DNA of 64,000 bases from Veillonellaceae bacterium. Lineage in GTDB: Bacteria; Bacillota; Negativicutes; Veillonellales; Negativicoccaceae. The notes beneath the pieces are model-generated. The model saw nothing but the letters and a program-made list of their open reading frames with translations. It did no database searches and was not told the DNA's origin. Position numbers and translations under genes: made by a program. Below are positions 1,537-19,837 of this stretch, piece after piece (position 1 is the stretch's first letter; the number at the start of each line of letters is the position of its first letter). The DNA lies in assembly GCA_022771805.1 (NCBI GenBank), contig JALELM010000008.1, positions 62,001 to 126,000 of the forward strand, written 5' to 3'.

Positions 1537-3449
1537 TGGCACGGATTCACGTACTGGATGCCGTCACGGCGAACCAAATCGCGGCGGGCGAGGTCGTGGA
1601 ACGGCCGGCATCCATTGTGAAGGAATTGGTGGAAAATGCCATCGATGCCGGCGCAACCGAAATTGAAATCGAAATCGCCGAGGGCGGTTTGAGTTATTTG
1701 CGAGTGACGGATAACGGCAACGGCATGGAGCCGGAAGATGCGGAGCTGGCATTTGTGCGACACGCGACGAGCAAAATCCGTACGGCGGAAGATATTTTTG
1801 CCGTGGCTTCGCTCGGCTTTCGCGGTGAGGCGTTGCCGAGTATCGCCTCGGTTGCCAAGGTGCGCCTGCAGACGCGCCCGGCAACACGGGAAACCGGGGT
1901 TTTCCTGGCGATCGAAGGCGGCAAAGAGACAGAGCGCGGCGAAATCGGTGCGCCGAGCGGGACGACCGTCGAAGTGCGGGATCTGTTTTACAACACGCCG
2001 GCTCGCCGCAAGTTCATGAAGACGGAGCGAACCGAAAGCGGCCGGATCAATGCGCTGGTGGGGAAAATGGCACTGGCGGAGGCGGGGATCACTTTTCGCC
2101 TGATCAATAACGGGCGTATCGTGATCGACACGCCGGGAAACGGTAGTCTCGCCGATACCTTTGCCGGGATTTACGGCGCGGAACTGAGCGAGGCGATGCT
2201 GCCGGTGGAGTTCCAAGGCGACACGGCAACCGTACGGGGCTTGGTCGGCAAGCCCTCCGTGTTGAAGGGGACTCGCCAATGGCAGACGTTCATCGTCAAC
2301 CGGCGGGTGGTGGAAAGTCCGCTGATTGCGCGGGCGTTGACGAATGCATACCATTCGTTACTGCCGAAAAACGGCCATCCGGTAGCGGTGTTGCAGATTG
2401 AAACGACACCGGAAGAGGTGGATGTCAATGTCCATCCGCAAAAGCGGGAAATCCGTTTTTTGGCGGAACAGCAGATTTTTCGCCAGGTATCGCATGCAAT
2501 TCTAAGCGCCTTGACGGCAGCGGCGAAGCCGGCACAGGTGGCAACGGAGATCCGCCAACGTCCGGCAGCAGTTGAAAAGGATATGCGCTCGTTGCTGACG
2601 GATGAAAAGGAACAGCAGGAACGGCGTGACGCTTGGCGCGAAGCCTTGCGACAGGAGGCGGAAAAACGGGCGGCCGAACGGGCACCGGTGCAGGAAAGTG
2701 CCGAGCGGCCGGAGATATACACCTCGGGCACGGCGACGTCCGGGCGGAATGCGGCGACACAACCGGCGGAATACGTGCCGCCGAGCCCGCAGCGGATCGC
2801 GGAAAGCACGGCATTTACGGATTATCTTGCGGAACAACGCAGAGAAACGACGGCGGCTTTGTTCGAGCCGGCGACGGAAGCACCGTACCCGGTACCGCTG
2901 GGACAGGTTGCGGACTGTTTCATTATTTGCCAAATGGGCGAGGAACTGTATATTATCGACCAACACGCGGCGCACGAACGCATTCGCTACGATCGTCTGG
3001 CAGTCGCGACGGAGGGAATTCCGTCCCAGCAATTACTCGTGCCGGTGTTGCTGACGTTGGCTCCGGAGGAGATCCGGGTATTGACGGAGCGGGAAGAAGA
3101 TTTGCGTGAGCTCGGTTTCGTGCTTGCACAGGCGGGGCCGAACGTCATTCGGGTGGATGCCGCGCCGGCGGATGCGGAAGGCGCCGAGCAGGAGCGCATG
3201 ATTCGGGAAATCGCCGCCACCCTGCAGGATTCCCACGCACCGACACGGGAACAGCTGCGGCACCGTGTGCTGGCCTATGCCGCTTGCCGCGGGGCGATCA
3301 AGGCCGGCCATCGCTTGAATATCCGGCAAATGCGGGAACTGATCAGCGATCTGTTTGCGACTTCGCGACCCTTTGTCTGCCCGCACGGTCGTCCCGTCAT
3401 CGTGCGTTTTACCGCCAAGGATCTGGCGAATTTGTTTGAACGTACATGA
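1536..3449 (+). CDS. mutL: DNA mismatch repair protein MutL
   Basis: MutL, 637 residues, is the GHKL ATPase that links MutS to strand removal. The N-terminal domain shows ENAIDAGAT (about residue 33), DNGNGM (about 61) and GFRGEALPSI (about 94). A Gln/Glu-rich linker follows, then a C-terminal dimerisation/endonuclease domain with DQHAAHER at about residue 475, ACRGAIKAG, and CPHGRP at about 615. These are the metal-binding motifs of nicking MutLs found in bacteria without MutH, so strand incision is probably done by MutL itself. The ATG overlaps the mutS stop by one base; an in-frame upstream ATG at 1431 lies inside mutS and was rejected because residue 1 at 1536 begins the conserved MARIHVLD start. 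Confidence 0.97.
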   Translation: MARIHVLDAVTANQIAAGEVVERPASIVKELVENAIDAGATEIEIEIAEGGLSYLRVTDNGNGMEPEDAELAFVRHATSKIRTAEDIFAVASLGFRGEALPSIASVAKVRLQTRPATRETGVFLAIEGGKETERGEIGAPSGTTVEVRDLFYNTPARRKFMKTERTESGRINALVGKMALAEAGITFRLINNGRIVIDTPGNGSLADTFAGIYGAELSEAMLPVEFQGDTATVRGLVGKPSVLKGTRQWQTFIVNRRVVESPLIARALTNAYHSLLPKNGHPVAVLQIETTPEEVDVNVHPQKREIRFLAEQQIFRQVSHAILSALTAAAKPAQVATEIRQRPAAVEKDMRSLLTDEKEQQERRDAWREALRQEAEKRAAERAPVQESAERPEIYTSGTATSGRNAATQPAEYVPPSPQRIAESTAFTDYLAEQRRETTAALFEPATEAPYPVPLGQVADCFIICQMGEELYIIDQHAAHERIRYDRLAVATEGIPSQQLLVPVLLTLAPEEIRVLTEREEDLRELGFVLAQAGPNVIRVDAAPADAEGAEQERMIREIAATLQDSHAPTREQLRHRVLAYAACRGAIKAGHRLNIRQMRELISDLFATSRPFVCPHGRPVIVRFTAKDLANLFERT

Positions 3450-4234
3450 TTACGGCTTGGACGACGGCGGATCGGCCGACCCGCGAGCTGCGGGAAGCGG
3501 CGCAGGCGGCTGCTGCGGCACAGGGACTGGCGTACTATGAGCGCGGCCGGTATTCGCTGGCGAAATTGAGTGAGCAGCACGGCGTCGCAATCTGGCTTGT
3601 TGCCGGCAGAAACGGTGTGGAGGCTGTCCGCGGTGCGGCGCGTTACCGTTTCCAGCTGAATATGGCGGAATTGCGGATCCGGGAGTGGGAACGCAGCGGA
3701 ACGGATATCCCGGCGAACCTTGTTGCGGAATTTGCGCCGCAACGCATTCTGGACTGCACCTTCGGCAAGGGGAGCGATGCCGCCGTCTTGGCGTACACGC
3801 TGCCGGCGGCGCAAGTAACGGGATTGGAGTGCAGCCCGGCTTTATATGCGGTGAATGCATGGGGATTGCAACATTTCCGCCATCCGCGTAACGACCGGAT
3901 CACGGCGGCATTACGCCGCATTCGACTCTTGCCGGAGGAAGCGGGAGCTTATTTGCAACGCTGCGCGAGTGCGGAATTTGACGTGGTCTGCCTGGATTTC
4001 ATGTTTCGTTCGTCCGTGCGGCAGAGTACGAACTTGGATTCCTTTCGCCCGTTCGCCTCTCGCGGTGAATTGACACCGGAATTATTGGCGGCGGCACGCC
4101 ACGTGGCAAGGCGGGCGGTGATTTTGAAGACCCGTCCGCAGTCGCCCTGGTTGCGCGAGGAAGGAATAACAAAAACAGTCGGCGGCAAGTACAGCCGGGT
4201 GCATTACGGAGTATGGATATGCGAGAACGAATAG
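3446..4234 (+). CDS. RsmJ-like class I SAM-dependent methyltransferase
   Basis: A 262-residue protein with a SAM-binding motif I, DCTFGKGSDAAV, from about residue 103, followed by LECSP as the acidic motif II and DFMF near residue 184. The motif I form and the overall length resemble the PF04445 family that includes the 16S rRNA m2G1516 methyltransferase RsmJ; Firmicute members of this family are generally uncharacterised. The first ~90 residues carry no motif I recognise. The ATG overlaps the mutL stop (ATGA) and the 3' end overlaps miaA, so it is part of the mutS-mutL-miaA-hfq run. An RNA substrate fits the neighbouring tRNA-modification gene, but the exact target is inference. Confidence 0.75.
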   Translation: MITAWTTADRPTRELREAAQAAAAAQGLAYYERGRYSLAKLSEQHGVAIWLVAGRNGVEAVRGAARYRFQLNMAELRIREWERSGTDIPANLVAEFAPQRILDCTFGKGSDAAVLAYTLPAAQVTGLECSPALYAVNAWGLQHFRHPRNDRITAALRRIRLLPEEAGAYLQRCASAEFDVVCLDFMFRSSVRQSTNLDSFRPFASRGELTPELLAAARHVARRAVILKTRPQSPWLREEGITKTVGGKYSRVHYGVWICENE

Positions 4235-5157
4235 CGGTCATAATGGGGCCGACGGCTTCAGGGAAAACGGCTCTGAGTATTGAGTTGGCAAAGCGACTGA
4301 ACGGCGAAATTATTTCGGCGGATGCGTTTCAGGTCTATCGCGGGCTCGATATCGGAACTGCCAAGGTGACCGCGGCGGAGATGCAAGGCGTGCCGCATCA
4401 TTTGCTGGATATCAAGGAGCCGACCGAAGGCTATACCGCAGCGGAATTCTGCGCACGGGCGCGGGAATGTATCCGCGCGCTTACAGCCCGCGGGAAGTTG
4501 CCGATCATTGCCGGCGGTACGGGTCTGTATGTGCAGGCGTTGCTGGAAGGCTACGAATTTCCGGAAGCCGGGCCGTTACAGGAAGGGTATCGGCGCTGGG
4601 AGGCGGTATATGCCGTGGAGGGGCTGGCCGGACTGGTGCGGCATATGCGGGAACGTTCGCCGGAGTATTTTACCACGCGCCCCGTACCGGATCGGCAGCG
4701 TCTGATTCGCGCGCTGGCACTGCTGGATAGCGGCGCGGATTACCGGGCGGGCAAGAGCGGCGAACCGGTGTATCGGGCGAAAGTCATCGCGTTGGCACCG
4801 CCGACGGAAATCCTGAAAGAACGTATCGCGCAGCGCGTGCAGGCAATGCTGGCAGCCGGCCTGGAGGACGAAGCGAGGCGCTTGTGGTCATTGCCGCAAG
4901 CGGCCGAATTGCAGGCGACCAAGGGGATCGGTTATCGCGAGTGGGCGGCTTACTTTGCCGGCGAGGCTACGCGGGAAGAAACGGCTGCGGCGATCATTAA
5001 GGCGACGCGGCGTTTTGCGAAACGGCAACGAACCTGGCTGCGGCGAATGCCCTATGTGCATTACTTGGATCCGACCCGTTACACGGATCCGGCGGCCTTG
5101 ACGGAAGCCGCGACGGCATATATTCTCGGGAAAGGAGACGTTAGCGATGGAAAATAA
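4219..5157 (+). CDS. miaA: tRNA dimethylallyltransferase MiaA
   Basis: MiaA transfers a dimethylallyl group to A37 of tRNAs reading codons that start with U. The 312-residue protein has the P-loop GPTASGKT at about residues 10-17, the [15 protein letters not shown] segment, the GGTGLYV motif and the family's Arg/Lys-rich C-terminal region. I chose the ATG at 4219 because GGAG at 4208-4211 sits 7 bases upstream; the in-frame ATG at 4213 is only 1 base from that site. The gene starts 16 bases inside the methyltransferase gene and its last 11 bases overlap hfq. The miaA-hfq order is a conserved arrangement in many bacteria. Confidence 0.97.
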
Positions 5158-14193: not shown

Positions 14194-17100
14194 ATGTATC
14201 AGTATAAATTGGTGCCGAACGATTCCCGGGCGATTACTTCGCTGCAGGTGGATATCATTACGGGGTGTTGGCAGGTAACCTTGCGCCGTAAAGATGAACG
14301 CTTGGCGCATCAAATTCAACAATTTTTGCAGACGGAAGCGACCGGCACGGCTGTCCGTTTCTTTGTGGACGAAACGGAATGGCAGGTATCGCCGCCGGCA
14401 CCGCCGTTCGCCGCGCCGGAACCGGCACCTGCCGCACCGCAGAGCGAAGCATCGCTGCCGGCGGACTGGAACAAGATCCTGTACAACGCCCAGGTGCGCG
14501 AAGCGGGAGCGGCCCGCTCGACCCGCCGCAAGAACGGTGTACTGCTGGGAAGGCGGGTCATCAAGACCGCACCGCAAGATATTGCCGCGGTGACGGAAGA
14601 AACCGATCGGGTAGTCATCGAAGGGCGCGTCATCGAAGCGGACTGGCGTGAATTGCGTACGGGACGCAAACTGCTGAAGCTGAAAGTGGCGGACGACACG
14701 AACGGGATCCTGGCGCAAAGCTTCTTCGAAGCGGAGGAGACGACGGGCCATTTGGAAAACGCGCTGCATAAAGGCGTGTCGGTTCGGATCAGCGGCAGCG
14801 CCCGCTACGACAAGTACAGCGGCGACCTCATCCTGCATATGCGCGGTTTGATGCTGGTGGAAGAAGAGCGGACGGAACATGTGGACGACCATCCCACGCC
14901 GCGCGTGGAACTTCACCTGCACACGAAGATGAGCACGGATGCGCTGATCGACGTCGGCCGCCTGTTGGACACGGTGAAAAAATGGAATCACCCGGCGGTC
15001 GCTATTACCGATCACGGTGTGGTGCAGTCCTTCCCGATGGTTCAGGCGCTGGCAGCGGAAAAAGGTGTAAAAATCATCTACGGGATGGAAGGCTACCTGA
15101 TCGAGGAAATTCCGACGGATATTGCACAGGATCGCCAAAAATATACGCATATTATCATCTTGGCGGAAAATATGACCGGTCTGCGTAATTTGTACCGACT
15201 GGTCTCCCTTTCGCATTTGCGCTATTTCAAAAAACGCCCGCTGATTCCGCGGGCTATCCTGTCTCAATATCGTGAGGGGCTGATCTTGGGCTCGGCGTGT
15301 GTCGCGGGGGATTTGTTTCGGGCGATCCTGCAGGAGGAGAGCGAGGAGCGGATCGAGGGGATTGCCCGCTACTATGACTACCTGGAAGTGCAGCCGATTT
15401 CCGACAATACCTTCCTCCTGCGTGACGAGCGGTACCCCGCCGTCCGTACGGACGATGATCTGCGCGCGCTGAATACCCGGATCGTCGAATTGGGCGAAAA
15501 ACTGGGCATTCCGGTCTGCGCGACCTGCGACTCACACTACCTGTTTGAAGAGGACAAGGTATATCGCGATATCCTGCTCAGCAAGTGGAGCAAAGGCGAA
15601 CTGGACGAAGCGATGCCGGATCTGTTTTTGCGTACGACGAAAGAAATGCTGGCGGAGTTCGCTTACCTGGGCGAGGAAAAGGCGAAGGAGATCGTCATCA
15701 CCAACACCCGCGCCATAGCCGAGCGAGTGGACGCCATCGCACCCTTGCCGCCGGACGGCAAGCTCTATGCCCCGAAAATCAACGGCTCGGACGAAGAATT
15801 GAAACGTATGTGCTACGCCAAGGCGCACCGCCTGTACGGCGAGACCTTGCCGGAACCGGTCGCCGCGCGGCTGGAAAGCGAACTCGCCGCGATCATCGGC
15901 AACGGCTTCGGCGTGCTCTACTACATTGCACATAAACTGGTGAAGAAATCCCTGGACGACGGCTACCTGGTCGGTTCACGCGGCTCCGTCGGCTCGTCCT
16001 TCGTGGCGACCATGGCGGATATCACGGAAGTGAATCCGCTGCCGCCGCACTACCTTTGCCTCCATTGCCGATACAGCAAATTTTTCCCGGACGGCAGATT
16101 CGGCGGCGGTTTCGACCTGCCGGACGAAAACTGCCCGCATTGCGGCAAGCCCTTGCACAAAGACGGACACAATATTCCCTTTGCGGTTTTCATGGGCTTT
16201 GAAGGCGACAAAGTGCCGGATATCGACCTGAATTTTTCCGGCGATTACCAACCGAATGCACACAAGTACACGGAAGAACTGTTCGGCAAAGATAATGTGT
16301 TTCGCGCGGGGACGATCAGCGGGATAAAGGATCGGACGGCGTTCGGCTATGTGAAAAAATACACCGAACAACGCCAAATCGCCTGCAACGACATCTATGT
16401 CAGCAGCTTGATGGACGGCATTACCAAGGTTAAGAACACGACGGGACAGCACCCCGGCGGCATCATGGTCTGCCCGCGGGATATGGATATTCTGGCCTTT
16501 ACGCCGATCCAGCACCCGGCGAATAAAAAAGAGTCCGGTATCATCACGACACATTTCGACTACCACTCCATCGAGGGGCGCATGGTCAAGCTCGACATTC
16601 TCGGCCACGATGACCCGACCGTCATTCGTATGCTGGAAGACCTCACGGGAGTCAGCCCGCAAAGCATCCCGTTCGACGATCCGGCGACACTCAGCCTGTT
16701 TTCCTCAACCGAAGCGTTGGGACTGAGCAGCGACGACTTGAACGGCGATGTCGTGGGGACGCTCGGCATCCCGGAATACGGCACGAAATTCGTCCGGCAA
16801 ATGCTGGCGGACACCTTGCCGAAAAATTTCAGCGAACTCGTTCGGATCAGCGGCTTTTCGCACGGAACGGACGTCTGGCTGAACAATGCGAAAGACTTGA
16901 TCACGGCCGGGCAAGTAAAACTGGACGAAGCGATCTCCACCCGGGACGACATCATGACCTACCTCATCCAACAGAACGTGCCGTCGAAACTGGCCTTTAA
17001 CATCATGGAAAACGTCCGCAAGGGCAAAGGCCTGGAAAAGAAAAACAAGCAGGGTGAGCCCGTTACGCAAAACGAAGCGGCGCTGCGCGAATACCGAATA

Positions 17101-17676
17101 CCGGCGTGGTTCATCGAATCCTGCAAAAAGATTTCCTACCTGTTTCCGCGCGCACATGCGGTAGCCTATGTCATGATGGCGTTTCGCATCGCCTGGTTCA
17201 AGATCAACTACCCGCTGGCATTCTATGCAGCGTATTTCTCGGTGCGAGCCAGCGGCAAATTTGACGGCAAAGCGATTCTGCCGGGCCTGCAGGCACAACG
17301 CAAAGCTTGGAACTACATCTTGGCAAAAGGGCGCGAAGCGAGCGCCGTGGAAAAGGACTCCGCCACGCATATCGAAGTGGCGATGGAAATGTCGCTGCGC
17401 GGCTTCGGATTCAAGACGGTATCCCTCGAACGATCCGATGTGCGAAACTTCCTCATCGAAGACGGAATGCTTCTGCCGCCGCTGTCCAGCGTGCCGGGAT
17501 TGGGCGTGACCGTTGCGGAGGAAATTGTCGCGGCGCGAGTCGACGGCCCCTTTACCTCGAAAGAAGACCTGCGAAAACGGGGGAAAGTCAGCCAAAGCAT
17601 CATCGACACCCTCGCCGAACTCGGCGCGCTGCAAGGCATGCCGGAAGAGGAACAAATCAGCCTGTTCGAGATGTAA
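14194..17676 (+). CDS. polC: PolC-type DNA polymerase III alpha subunit lacking the inserted 3'-5' exonuclease
   Basis: PolC is the leading replicative polymerase of low-GC Gram-positive lineages. This 1160-residue version has a short N-terminal region, an OB domain (about residues 140-225), a PHP domain beginning VELHLHTKMSTD (about 238) with AITDHG, a zinc-binding pair CLHC/CPHC at about 622-650, the polymerase catalytic PDIDLNF (Asp676, Asp678) and a C-terminal helix-hairpin-helix (PGLGVTVAEEIVAAR). In Bacillus PolC (about 1437 residues) a DnaQ-like exonuclease with a DxETTG motif is inserted in the PHP domain after YGMEANL. Here IYGMEGYLIEE runs straight into the second PHP half, and no DxE exonuclease motif exists anywhere. 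GGAGAG is 13 bases upstream of the ATG. Confidence 0.95.
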   Translation: MYQYKLVPNDSRAITSLQVDIITGCWQVTLRRKDERLAHQIQQFLQTEATGTAVRFFVDETEWQVSPPAPPFAAPEPAPAAPQSEASLPADWNKILYNAQVREAGAARSTRRKNGVLLGRRVIKTAPQDIAAVTEETDRVVIEGRVIEADWRELRTGRKLLKLKVADDTNGILAQSFFEAEETTGHLENALHKGVSVRISGSARYDKYSGDLILHMRGLMLVEEERTEHVDDHPTPRVELHLHTKMSTDALIDVGRLLDTVKKWNHPAVAITDHGVVQSFPMVQALAAEKGVKIIYGMEGYLIEEIPTDIAQDRQKYTHIIILAENMTGLRNLYRLVSLSHLRYFKKRPLIPRAILSQYREGLILGSACVAGDLFRAILQEESEERIEGIARYYDYLEVQPISDNTFLLRDERYPAVRTDDDLRALNTRIVELGEKLGIPVCATCDSHYLFEEDKVYRDILLSKWSKGELDEAMPDLFLRTTKEMLAEFAYLGEEKAKEIVITNTRAIAERVDAIAPLPPDGKLYAPKINGSDEELKRMCYAKAHRLYGETLPEPVAARLESELAAIIGNGFGVLYYIAHKLVKKSLDDGYLVGSRGSVGSSFVATMADITEVNPLPPHYLCLHCRYSKFFPDGRFGGGFDLPDENCPHCGKPLHKDGHNIPFAVFMGFEGDKVPDIDLNFSGDYQPNAHKYTEELFGKDNVFRAGTISGIKDRTAFGYVKKYTEQRQIACNDIYVSSLMDGITKVKNTTGQHPGGIMVCPRDMDILAFTPIQHPANKKESGIITTHFDYHSIEGRMVKLDILGHDDPTVIRMLEDLTGVSPQSIPFDDPATLSLFSSTEALGLSSDDLNGDVVGTLGIPEYGTKFVRQMLADTLPKNFSELVRISGFSHGTDVWLNNAKDLITAGQVKLDEAISTRDDIMTYLIQQNVPSKLAFNIMENVRKGKGLEKKNKQGEPVTQNEAALREYRIPAWFIESCKKISYLFPRAHAVAYVMMAFRIAWFKINYPLAFYAAYFSVRASGKFDGKAILPGLQAQRKAWNYILAKGREASAVEKDSATHIEVAMEMSLRGFGFKTVSLERSDVRNFLIEDGMLLPPLSSVPGLGVTVAEEIVAARVDGPFTSKEDLRKRGKVSQSIIDTLAELGALQGMPEEEQISLFEM

Positions 17677-17714
17677 ATGCATGGCAGAAGGGTGTCTTGT
17701 AGTGTATGGGAAGG

Positions 17715-17757
17715 CAAGAAAACGGTCGCTCCGGCCATTTTCTTGTTTTTTCTTTTT
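17715..17757 (+). terminator. Rho-independent terminator after polC
   Basis: CAAGAAAA (17715-17722) pairs with TTTTCTTG (17738-17745), with further imperfect pairing of GG/CC inside, followed by a T-rich tract to 17757. Confidence 0.8.
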
Positions 17758-17784
17758 GCAAGGTTAAAATGCATATGCTATACT
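17756..17784 (+). promoter_or_regulatory. Promoter of the small lipoprotein gene
   Basis: TTGCAA (17756-17761), 17-base spacer, TATACT (17779-17784). The predicted start near 17791 places the 16-bp palindromic array entirely in the 5' leader. Confidence 0.75.
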
Positions 17785-17793
17785 GGTTACGTA

Positions 17794-17857
17794 ATAGCGT
17801 AACTACGCTATAGCGTAACAACGTAATTACGTAATAGCGCTATAGCGTAACTTATAT
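17794..17857 (+). repeat. Tandem array of a 16-bp dyad unit in the leader of the lipoprotein gene
   Basis: Four 16-base units start at 17794, 17810, 17826 and 17842. ATAGCGTAAC is exact in units 1, 2 and 4 and degenerate in unit 3. The array is full of perfect palindromes: TACGCTATAGCGTA (17804-17817), ACGTAATTACGT (17821-17832), ATAGCGCTAT (17834-17843) and, at its edges, TTACGTAA (17787-17794) and CTTATATAAG (17851-17860). It lies between the -10 box and the AAGGAGG ribosome site. It could be an operator cluster or an RNA structure; no coding role is seen. Confidence 0.9.
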
Positions 17858-17872
17858 AAGGAGGATATTGCT

Positions 17873-18277
17873 ATGAAAAAGCTCGTGTGGGGGATGTTCT
17901 TCATGTTATTTGCTTTTATTCTTTCCGGATGTGCTGGAGAAAAAGATATAAGCGGGGTTTATTTGCGGACGAAGATAGATAATGGGATTAAATCTGTTGT
18001 TGTACTTAAAAAAATGCAAGACTCGGAAAATTTGTATGAGTACAAATCCTATTCAGCGAATGAAAACCAAGACAATAAGTATTGGCATAATCAAAACAAG
18101 ATGCTGCAATATGATAAAAAGAACAAAGTGCTAACCGAATATAATATTCCTAGCATGTTTAGAATAATTATTAAGGATGAAGATACTATTGTTCGTCACA
18201 CAAGTCAGTCGGAAAATGAGTTTAAACGCCTTTCTCCGGAAGAAGCGGCGAAGCTGCAACTCCCGGAAAAGAAATAG
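17873..18277 (+). CDS. Small predicted lipoprotein of unknown function
   Basis: A 134-residue exported lipoprotein: a basic start, a hydrophobic stretch and a lipobox LSGC with the modified Cys at residue 20. The mature part is hydrophilic and Lys/Asn/Glu/Tyr-rich (ENQDNKYWHNQNK region); I recognise no family. The RBS AAGGAGG (17858-17864) is 8 bases upstream. Base composition is clearly AT-richer than the flanking polC and rpsB genes, with AAA/ATA/AAT codons frequent, which suggests recent transfer or weak selection. It has its own promoter, an unusual palindromic leader and its own terminator, so it is a self-contained unit. Confidence 0.85.
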   Translation: MKKLVWGMFFMLFAFILSGCAGEKDISGVYLRTKIDNGIKSVVVLKKMQDSENLYEYKSYSANENQDNKYWHNQNKMLQYDKKNKVLTEYNIPSMFRIIIKDEDTIVRHTSQSENEFKRLSPEEAAKLQLPEKK

Positions 18278-18298
18278 CAGCCTCCTTCATAATACAAG

Positions 18299-18336
18299 AT
18301 ACCCCGTCCGTCAGGGCGGGGTATTCCTTTTCTTTC
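18299..18336 (+). terminator. Rho-independent terminator after the lipoprotein gene
   Basis: ATACCCCGTCC (18299-18309) pairs with GGGCGGGGTAT (18314-18324) around GTCA, with one G-U pair, followed by a T-rich tract. Confidence 0.85.
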
Positions 18337-18660
18337 TTTTTCCTGTTTTTCGCCTGTTTTGGGGCAGACTACTCCTTAAATCTTTACAAACATTCAAGGC
18401 AACTTACTACATATCTAGTAGCCATAATCTGTATATTTATTCAGAGTAGTGACTGTAGGCCATAATACCACATTCATATATCCTTTTTTCTGCTAAACAT
18501 CTCCTCGGGCGGCTGGGCAGAAATCCCCCCCCCTTAGGTGAACTAAGAGGAGGGAATGATTGATAAAAAACTTGTATTCGTGTCATATGATCCGCCGCCG
18601 TCATTGTTCGTTATTCTGCCCCCCGAACTCCGGCTAAGCAACCCCACGGCTGAGGCACAT
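18337..18660. other. Non-coding stretch with a hairpin and a C9 tract
   Basis: I see no gene here. It is AT-richer than the flanks up to about 18480. Between 18501 and 18552 CTCCTC pairs with GAGGAG, enclosing a run of nine C residues (18525-18533) and a small CTTAG/CTAAG hairpin (18533-18547). An ATG at 18556 opens 91 codons but runs through the downstream promoter, hairpins and terminator, has its purine-rich site only one base away, and gives a composition unlike a real protein. Confidence 0.6.
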
Positions 18661-18689
18661 TTGACAAGTCATGCGTGCTCAAATATAAT
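18661..18689 (+). promoter_or_regulatory. Perfect consensus promoter driving the candidate small RNA
   Basis: TTGACA (18661-18666), 17-base spacer, TATAAT (18684-18689). The predicted start is about A18696. No plausible coding sequence lies between it and the terminator at 18779-18804. Confidence 0.88.
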
Positions 18690-18699
18690 GCTATCAGAA

Positions 18700-18775
18700 A
18701 GCGGTTTGCCCCACCAACATAAAAGGGGAGCGAAAAAAGCGGTTTGCCCTACCAACACAAAAAGGGGGCGAAAAA
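18700..18775 (+). repeat. 38-bp direct tandem repeat, two copies
   Basis: Copies at 18700-18737 and 18738-18775 are identical at 34 of 38 positions and directly adjacent. They form the body of the candidate small RNA. Confidence 0.95.
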
Positions 18776-18778
18776 AGC

Positions 18779-18804
18779 GGCGGGCGAAAGCCCGCCTTTT
18801 TCTT
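18779..18804 (+). terminator. Rho-independent terminator of the candidate small RNA
   Basis: GGCGGGC (18779-18785), tetraloop GAAA, GCCCGCC (18790-18796), then TTTTTCTT. The stem is perfect. Confidence 0.93.
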
Positions 18805-18937
18805 GCGGTTTTCGGGAGTGCTATATATTGACCCTTGCAAATGTGCAAGGTAACCGATCATATGTCTGTCACGCTAAAAGTATTTGCAATATGTTTTAAC
18901 AGCTGAAGAATTTACGGATCGCATCGTGCGGCATATC

Positions 18938-18966
18938 TTGCCAAGCGGTGCGGTTTGTGCTATACT
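18938..18966 (+). promoter_or_regulatory. rpsB-tsf promoter
   Basis: TTGCCA (18938-18943), 17-base spacer, TATACT (18961-18966). The predicted start near 18973 leaves a structured leader of about 97 bases before rpsB. Confidence 0.75.
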
Positions 18967-18981
18967 CTTATAGGTTTAATT

Positions 18982-19069
18982 ACACACGCTGGGGATTCGA
19001 GCAGCTGTGTCTCGTGGGAGGCTCTGCCGGAGAGGAAACAGCGGAGGTTAAAAACAGGAGGTTTTACAA
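18982..19069 (+). promoter_or_regulatory. Structured 5' leader of rpsB, possible autoregulatory element
   Basis: ACACA-C-GCTG (18982-18991) pairs with CAGC-TGTGT (19002-19010) around a purine-rich loop, followed by GGAGGCTC/GCCGGAGAG elements and the ribosome site AGGAGG. Ribosomal-protein leaders often bind their own product; this one matches no specific family I can name. Confidence 0.45.
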
Positions 19070-19837
19070 ATGGCAGTAGTATCAATGAAACAATTGTTGG
19101 AAGCGGGCGTTCATTTCGGACACCAGACGCGTCGTTGGAATCCGAAGATGGCGAAGTACATCTTCACGGAACGTAACGGGATCTACATCATCGACTTGCA
19201 GCAGACGGTGAAAAAAGTAGATGAAGCGTATGATTTTCTGCGTGATGTTGCGGCATCCGGCAAGTCGGTGCTGTTCGTCGGCACGAAAAAGCAGGCGCAG
19301 ACGACTATCCAGGAAGAAGCGGAACGCTGCAATATGTTCTATGTCAAAGAACGCTGGTTGGGCGGTATGCTGACCAACTACAAGACAATTCAGACGCGGA
19401 TCAAGCGGTTGAGAGATCTGGAAGCCATGGAAGAAGATGGTCGCTTCGATCTTTTGCCGAAGAAAGAAGTCATCGTGCTGCGCCGCGAAATGGCGAAGCT
19501 GGAAAAGTATCTCAACGGTATTAAAGACATGAAATCCTTGCCGGGCGCATTGGTTATCGTCGATCCGAAAAAAGAGCGGATCGCGGTGGCGGAAGCTCGC
19601 AAGCTGAATATCCCGATCGTGGCGACGGTGGACACGAACTGCGATCCGGACGAAATCGATTATCCGATTCCGGCCAATGACGATGCCATTCGGGCGGTAA
19701 AATTGCTGGTCGGCAAGATGGCGGATGCCGTGTTGGAAGGTCGCCAGGGCGAACAGAACGAAGAGGCGGCAGGCGAAGAAGTCGTGGAAGCGGCAGAAAT
19801 CGCAACGGAAGAAGCGGAAGAAACGACAGCAGAATAA
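19070..19837 (+). CDS. rpsB: 30S ribosomal protein S2
   Basis: S2, 255 residues, binds at the head-body junction of the 30S subunit and is needed for S1/mRNA binding. The N-terminal [22 protein letters not shown], the [11 protein letters not shown] segment, the GTKKQAQ motif, RWLGGMLTN and the [23 protein letters not shown] region are all standard. The C-terminal ~25 residues are a Glu/Ala-rich acidic tail. AGGAGG lies nine bases upstream of the ATG. It is followed after 27 bases by tsf, the usual rpsB-tsf pair, both served by the promoter at 18938. Confidence 0.98.

Follow-up and report, generated by a model that had tools for sequence, protein, structure and literature searches.

A consensus promoter, two tandem repeats and a GC-rich terminator follow one another between polC (14194-17676) and rpsB (19070-19837) in a Veillonellaceae bacterium, which raises the question of what RNA is encoded there and what use the cell may have for it. 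An earlier note on this DNA placed the array correctly at the polC-rpsB boundary and read it as an undescribed titrating or Hfq-dependent small RNA. All coordinates below refer to the window, that is, the whole stretch of 64,000 nucleotides analyzed.

A predicted small-RNA gene within a lineage-specific insert

The promoter (TTGACA-N17-TATAAT, 18661-18689, forward strand) agrees with the consensus at 12 of 12 positions, with TTGACA at 18661-18666, a 17-nt spacer and TATAAT at 18684-18689, and it is the sole perfect promoter site within 17600-19100. Two 38-nt direct repeats with 34/38 identity follow on the same strand, unit 1 at 18698-18735 and unit 2 at 18736-18773. Tandem Repeats Finder delimits the array at 18698-18780 (period 38 nt, 2.2 copies, score 138), including a partial third unit, AAAGCGG (18774-18780), that reaches into the terminator. 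The intrinsic terminator (GGCGGGC-GAAA-GCCCGCC-TTTTT, 18779-18801, forward strand) has a 7-bp all-GC stem (18779-18796) and then TTTTT to 18801; terminator-like sites in the region number 7, compared with 1.2 expected from shuffles. The transcript predicted from promoter and terminator would extend from 18696 to 18801 on the forward strand, about 106 nt. The promoter, the repeats and the terminator with its T-tract are thus as the earlier note described them, and its impression that a small RNA has a gene of its own here, made of two structured units in tandem, appears right as far as sequence can tell. A mechanical open reading frame of 91 aa (18556-18831) runs across the array, and the relatives have no such frame. 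With a period of 38 nt, not divisible by 3, the two units fall in different reading frames, which rules out a coding repeat; a CRISPR array is ruled out by the lack of spacers between the units.

The segment between polC and the rpsB promoter (17677-18935, right boundary approximate) is missing in three family relatives (G001-G003), in which rpsB comes directly after polC. The array is therefore not conserved at this junction in the family members examined, the place at which the earlier note had suggested searching related genomes. The insert of about 1.26 kb, which holds a small lipoprotein gene and the RNA assigned below to the ToxI type, is lineage-specific among the genomes compared (one genome per species). 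The lipoprotein gene (17873-18277) matches no Pfam family above the cut-off; G002 and G003 carry distant relatives of it (about 30% identity) at other genomic positions. Just upstream of it, dense overlapping palindromes at 17789-17851 (ACGTAATAGCGTAAC / GCTATAGCGTAAC) resemble an operator region. A run of nine C at 18525-18533, followed by an inverted repeat (CCCTTAG-gtgaa-CTAAGAGG), lies upstream of the RNA promoter; homopolymers as long as this tend to undergo slippage.

Relationship to ToxI antitoxin RNAs

To find relatives of the array, a blastn search was made of 60 genomes, consisting of the own genome and 59 relatives. The sole match outside the own genome is an array in G059 with the same order of elements (E 1.2e-7). 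The G059 array has three 36-nt units (AAAAAAGCGGTTAGCCTATCCAACCAAAATAGGAGC) downstream of a promoter, TTGACA-17-TATACT, that lies at the same distance from unit 1 as in the window; a terminator and then a ToxN gene (PF13958, E 1.8e-41) follow. The G059 locus thus belongs to the ToxIN type III toxin-antitoxin systems, with the repeats as its ToxI antitoxin RNA. Further arrays of this kind with a linked ToxN came from Negativicutes genomes (G011, G062, G242, G370 and G094) and from viral contigs (L137-L142), so that ToxIN loci with related ToxI units also occur on viral contigs. Most of the collected ToxN-linked arrays share the start AAAGCGG, and all collected arrays have a short stem 1, a longer stem 2, an A-rich second loop and A-rich linkers. 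Searches of the window locus by blastn gave no match in phages; in plasmids the sole match, a 23-nt stretch at the terminator, is due to chance. The unit type GCGGUUNG...CCAAC is a ToxI type belonging to some ToxNs; in one genus the ToxN genes (L088, L090, L091, L093 and L096) come with a longer ToxI unit of another type (about 54-60 nt), and G039 bears two ToxIN loci side by side. The 35 viral-contig matches to the pattern AGCGGTTNGCCNNNCCAAC are all single, none tandem and none significant with the covariance model, and were set aside as chance.

Solved ToxI RNAs fold as H-type pseudoknots (PMC5086642, PMC8860590). Each window unit is compatible with such a fold in our model, with stem 1 GGU/ACC (18703-18705/18713-18715 in unit 1 and 18741-18743/18751-18753 in unit 2) and stem 2 CCCC/GGGG in unit 1 (18709-18712/18725-18728) or CCCU/AGGG in unit 2 (18747-18750/18763-18766), a change from C-G to U-A. 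A simple pseudoknot score was reached by 3.4% (unit 1) and 1.4% (unit 2) of shuffles and by none of 1500 joint permutations. The claim of one hairpin per unit holds insofar as the tandem units are structured; the single-hairpin picture is incomplete because each unit fits a pseudoknot, which also accounts for the ACCAACA and A-rich sequence formerly taken for a loop and now seen to belong to the conserved ToxI unit. The predicted fold of 18696-18804 exceeds dinucleotide shuffles in stability (z -2.4), and in its minimum-free-energy structure units 1 and 2 pair with each other.

The differences between the units preserve pairing, as the earlier note had claimed for most of them: two of the four form the compensated pair, one lies in a loop and one in a bulge, and stems 1 and 2 are kept in both units. 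When four random changes were simulated, all pairs including a compensated one were kept in 1.4% of cases. Stem 2 also covaries among the ToxN-linked arrays, with 77% paired cells against 53% in shuffles and 42 cells with double-sided changes against 16.9 (0/500 shuffles), in a structural register fitted partly by hand. All covariation measures drop when the stem 2 partner is slid by 1-3 columns. The register of stem 1 varies between subgroups and is not fixed by sequence alone.

A covariance model, R2, was trained solely on ToxN-linked ToxI arrays with the window held out. The window RNA is detected with a score of 37.4 bits, and its E-value is 4e-7 when 89 kb are searched and 6.3e-6 for the whole own genome (both rough, as are all E-values from models built in this analysis). 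Two ToxN-linked arrays outside the model, from other classes elsewhere in the phylum, score 50.2 bits (G705) and 37.5 bits (G425). Membership among ToxI RNAs is therefore independent of training on the window. Rfam, at gathering and permissive thresholds, places no relevant family at the locus and at gathering score only a tRNA in the window. We do not count this against membership because a genuine ToxN-linked array, L002, also obtains no antitoxin match. The RNA is thus almost certainly a ToxI-type antitoxin RNA. The earlier note knew of no described RNA with this layout; however, a promoter, tandem pseudoknot units of the 34-38-nt class, A-rich linkers and a terminator are the layout of ToxI, and sequence, covariation and the held-out model place the RNA there, with no support found for titration or Hfq.

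The missing toxin and other toxin-less arrays

At every ToxN-linked locus inspected, the toxin gene lies directly behind the terminator; the window has rpsB there instead, an unusual trait that escaped the earlier note. A six-frame examination of the interval from the terminator to rpsB gave no toxN remnant, and a PF13958 search of the assembled genome (1.44 Mb, 95% complete, 20 contigs) gave no ToxN. With the G059 toxin as a query against the own genome, only a chance match was obtained (E 0.18). The same family search finds ToxN in 10 of 80 genomes, which indicates that the method works. Because rpsB follows the array, no toxN remnant is left and the assembled genome has no PF13958, the window holds a solitary ToxI-type RNA and not a complete ToxIN system.

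To see whether such arrays recur, models R1 and R2 were run over 380 Negativicutes genomes. ToxN is directly downstream of the array in six genomes (G059, G011, G062, G370, G094 and G242), and toxin-less arrays are present in seven, at six loci: the window, G060/G034, G069, G090, G171 and G343. PF13958 was found nowhere in G060, G034, G069, G090 (89% complete) or G343 (82% complete); G171 bears a ToxN at another genomic place. Held-out E-values in 132 kb, rough as above, give strong support to G060 (2e-11) and G069 (9e-7) and moderate support to G171 and G343 (1e-4 each). Support is weak for G034 and G090 (about 0.01), whose tandem units and linkers were assessed visually. On inspection, weak matches in G131, G226, G243, G256, G120, G339 and G630 had no array or no more than one unit, and were not counted. 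Beyond the Negativicutes, both true arrays found in the phylum (G705 and G425) have ToxN.

The toxin-less arrays of G060 (L187:8511-8586, two units) and G034 (L191:6975-7057, one unit, decayed) occupy the same position, with a deaminase-like gene in front, in two congeneric species; of five other species of this genus, three have no match and two have short weak matches. In G069 some 300 bases separate an array of 38-nt units (L188:5234-5420) from the start of a divergent cas9-like gene (1695-4913). The cas9-like gene is followed by cas1- and cas2-like genes, and a CRISPR array with spacers occupies 1-426; this locale is possibly a defence island. Behind the terminator of the G343 array (L183:1440-1620), at about 80 bases, is a gene with no Pfam match, which may be a coincidence. 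A second ToxIN locus in G059 (L095:1413-1602) is apparently broken, with one ToxI unit and a toxN reduced to its first codons.

Solitary antitoxin or remnant

ToxN processes the ToxI precursor to single pseudoknots, which keep the toxin inactive in a closed complex; free ToxI folds by itself, and about 1.8 to 2.5 repeats are enough for activity in two systems studied (PMC5086642, PMC8860590). ToxN is also blocked in trans by an excess of ToxI or pseudo-ToxI RNA, and phage PhiTE evades ToxIN through expanded pseudo-ToxI repeats (PMC3475682). Because excess antitoxin RNA blocks ToxN elsewhere, we infer a role in trans for the window RNA. The reading that we prefer, at a probability of roughly 0.55 for the statement as a whole, is that the locus is a solitary type III antitoxin gene of the ToxIN/AbiQ family, kept without its toxin and active against ToxN arriving on mobile DNA. 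The consensus promoter would give the RNA of about 106 nt with two ToxI units, each of which would fold as an H-type pseudoknot with A-rich tails. When a ToxN endoribonuclease of matching type enters on a plasmid, phage or other mobile element, the RNA would still bind it, be cut by it into single units and keep it inactive. The cell would thereby be immune to the addiction or abortive-infection killing of the element, which could be lost without cell death. ToxI-ToxN pairing can be specific, as the Pectobacterium and Bacillus systems show no cross-talk (PMC5086642). Among the collected loci there is no ToxN whose own ToxI units equal those of the window. Counting against an active role, conservation of the array does not extend to the three family relatives, and with the genome 95% complete the assembly may miss a ToxN.

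The main rival, to which we give a serious though lesser chance, is that a full toxIN once occupied this site, toxN was deleted and the antitoxin was left without function. Loss of the toxin first is safe and loss of the antitoxin first is not, and the lineage-specific insert fits such a history. Decay of ToxIN-type loci is moreover common, since G034, whose array corresponds in position to the G060 array, has only one unit left and toxN is broken at other loci (the second loci of G059 and G011, and G062). A functionless remnant is harder to reconcile with the perfect promoter and terminator, the two intact units and the compensated divergence between them, or with the lack of any toxN trace between terminator and rpsB. 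The intact elements and compensated divergence speak for function, but they could predate the loss of the toxin.

It is improbable that the RNA instead neutralizes in trans an unseen toxin, whether one of another family or a ToxN encoded on a plasmid or in the 5% of the genome that the assembly lacks. The incompleteness of the genome, spread over 20 contigs, leaves room for one, G171 offers a precedent in combining a toxin-less array with a ToxN elsewhere, and the genome-wide search covered ToxN and not the TenpN or CptN types; yet the PF13958 and G059-toxin searches found no ToxN, and rpsB stands where all inspected ToxN-linked loci have the toxin. Least probable is a regulatory RNA, Hfq-dependent or titrating and possibly a re-used ToxI, acting on mRNAs or proteins: the gene is a free-standing promoter-RNA-terminator unit and hfq is indeed present at 5147 (PF17209, E 2.6e-25), but the ACCAACA and A-rich motif is explained by the ToxI pseudoknot and no Rfam small-RNA family reaches its cut-off at the locus.

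Under the preferred reading of a solitary antitoxin, the locus can be set beside three known systems. It resembles ToxIN/AbiQ (ToxI RNA with ToxN, PF13958) in its promoter, tandem 34-38-nt units with one pseudoknot each (here as modelled), A-rich linkers, terminator directly behind the array and sequence match to ToxN-linked arrays, and differs in having no toxin behind the terminator or in the assembled genome and two full units where many ToxIN arrays have three or more. Like the pseudo-ToxI of phage PhiTE, which suppresses ToxN in trans once expanded (PMC3475682), it has ToxI-like repeats without its own toxN; however, the PhiTE locus lies in a phage genome and its wild type has 1.5 repeats with no complete unit, whereas the window has two complete units, a consensus promoter and a terminator on a bacterial chromosome. 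By analogy, it may also be likened to type II orphan antitoxins, which are kept without a toxin and proposed to act against incoming toxins (anti-addiction), although those are proteins and this antitoxin is an RNA. The RNA family itself is already known; what is new is the toxin-less, stand-alone chromosomal form. Among open-licence PMC papers we came across none that describes solitary ToxI genes on bacterial chromosomes; orphan antitoxins are discussed for other types. Catalogues of type III systems have started from the toxin (PMC5086642, PMC8860590), so that toxin-less antitoxin RNAs have been invisible to them.

More tentatively, solitary ToxI RNAs might form a recurrent class of small-RNA genes in the Negativicutes, serving as chromosomal antidotes that immunize against ToxN-carrying plasmids and phages. 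The six toxin-less loci provide a natural set for mapping which ToxN each ToxI recognizes. If these RNAs are active in trans, some bacteria would own an RNA-only immunity against addiction and abortive-infection modules, a host-side counterpart of the pseudo-ToxI strategy of PhiTE.
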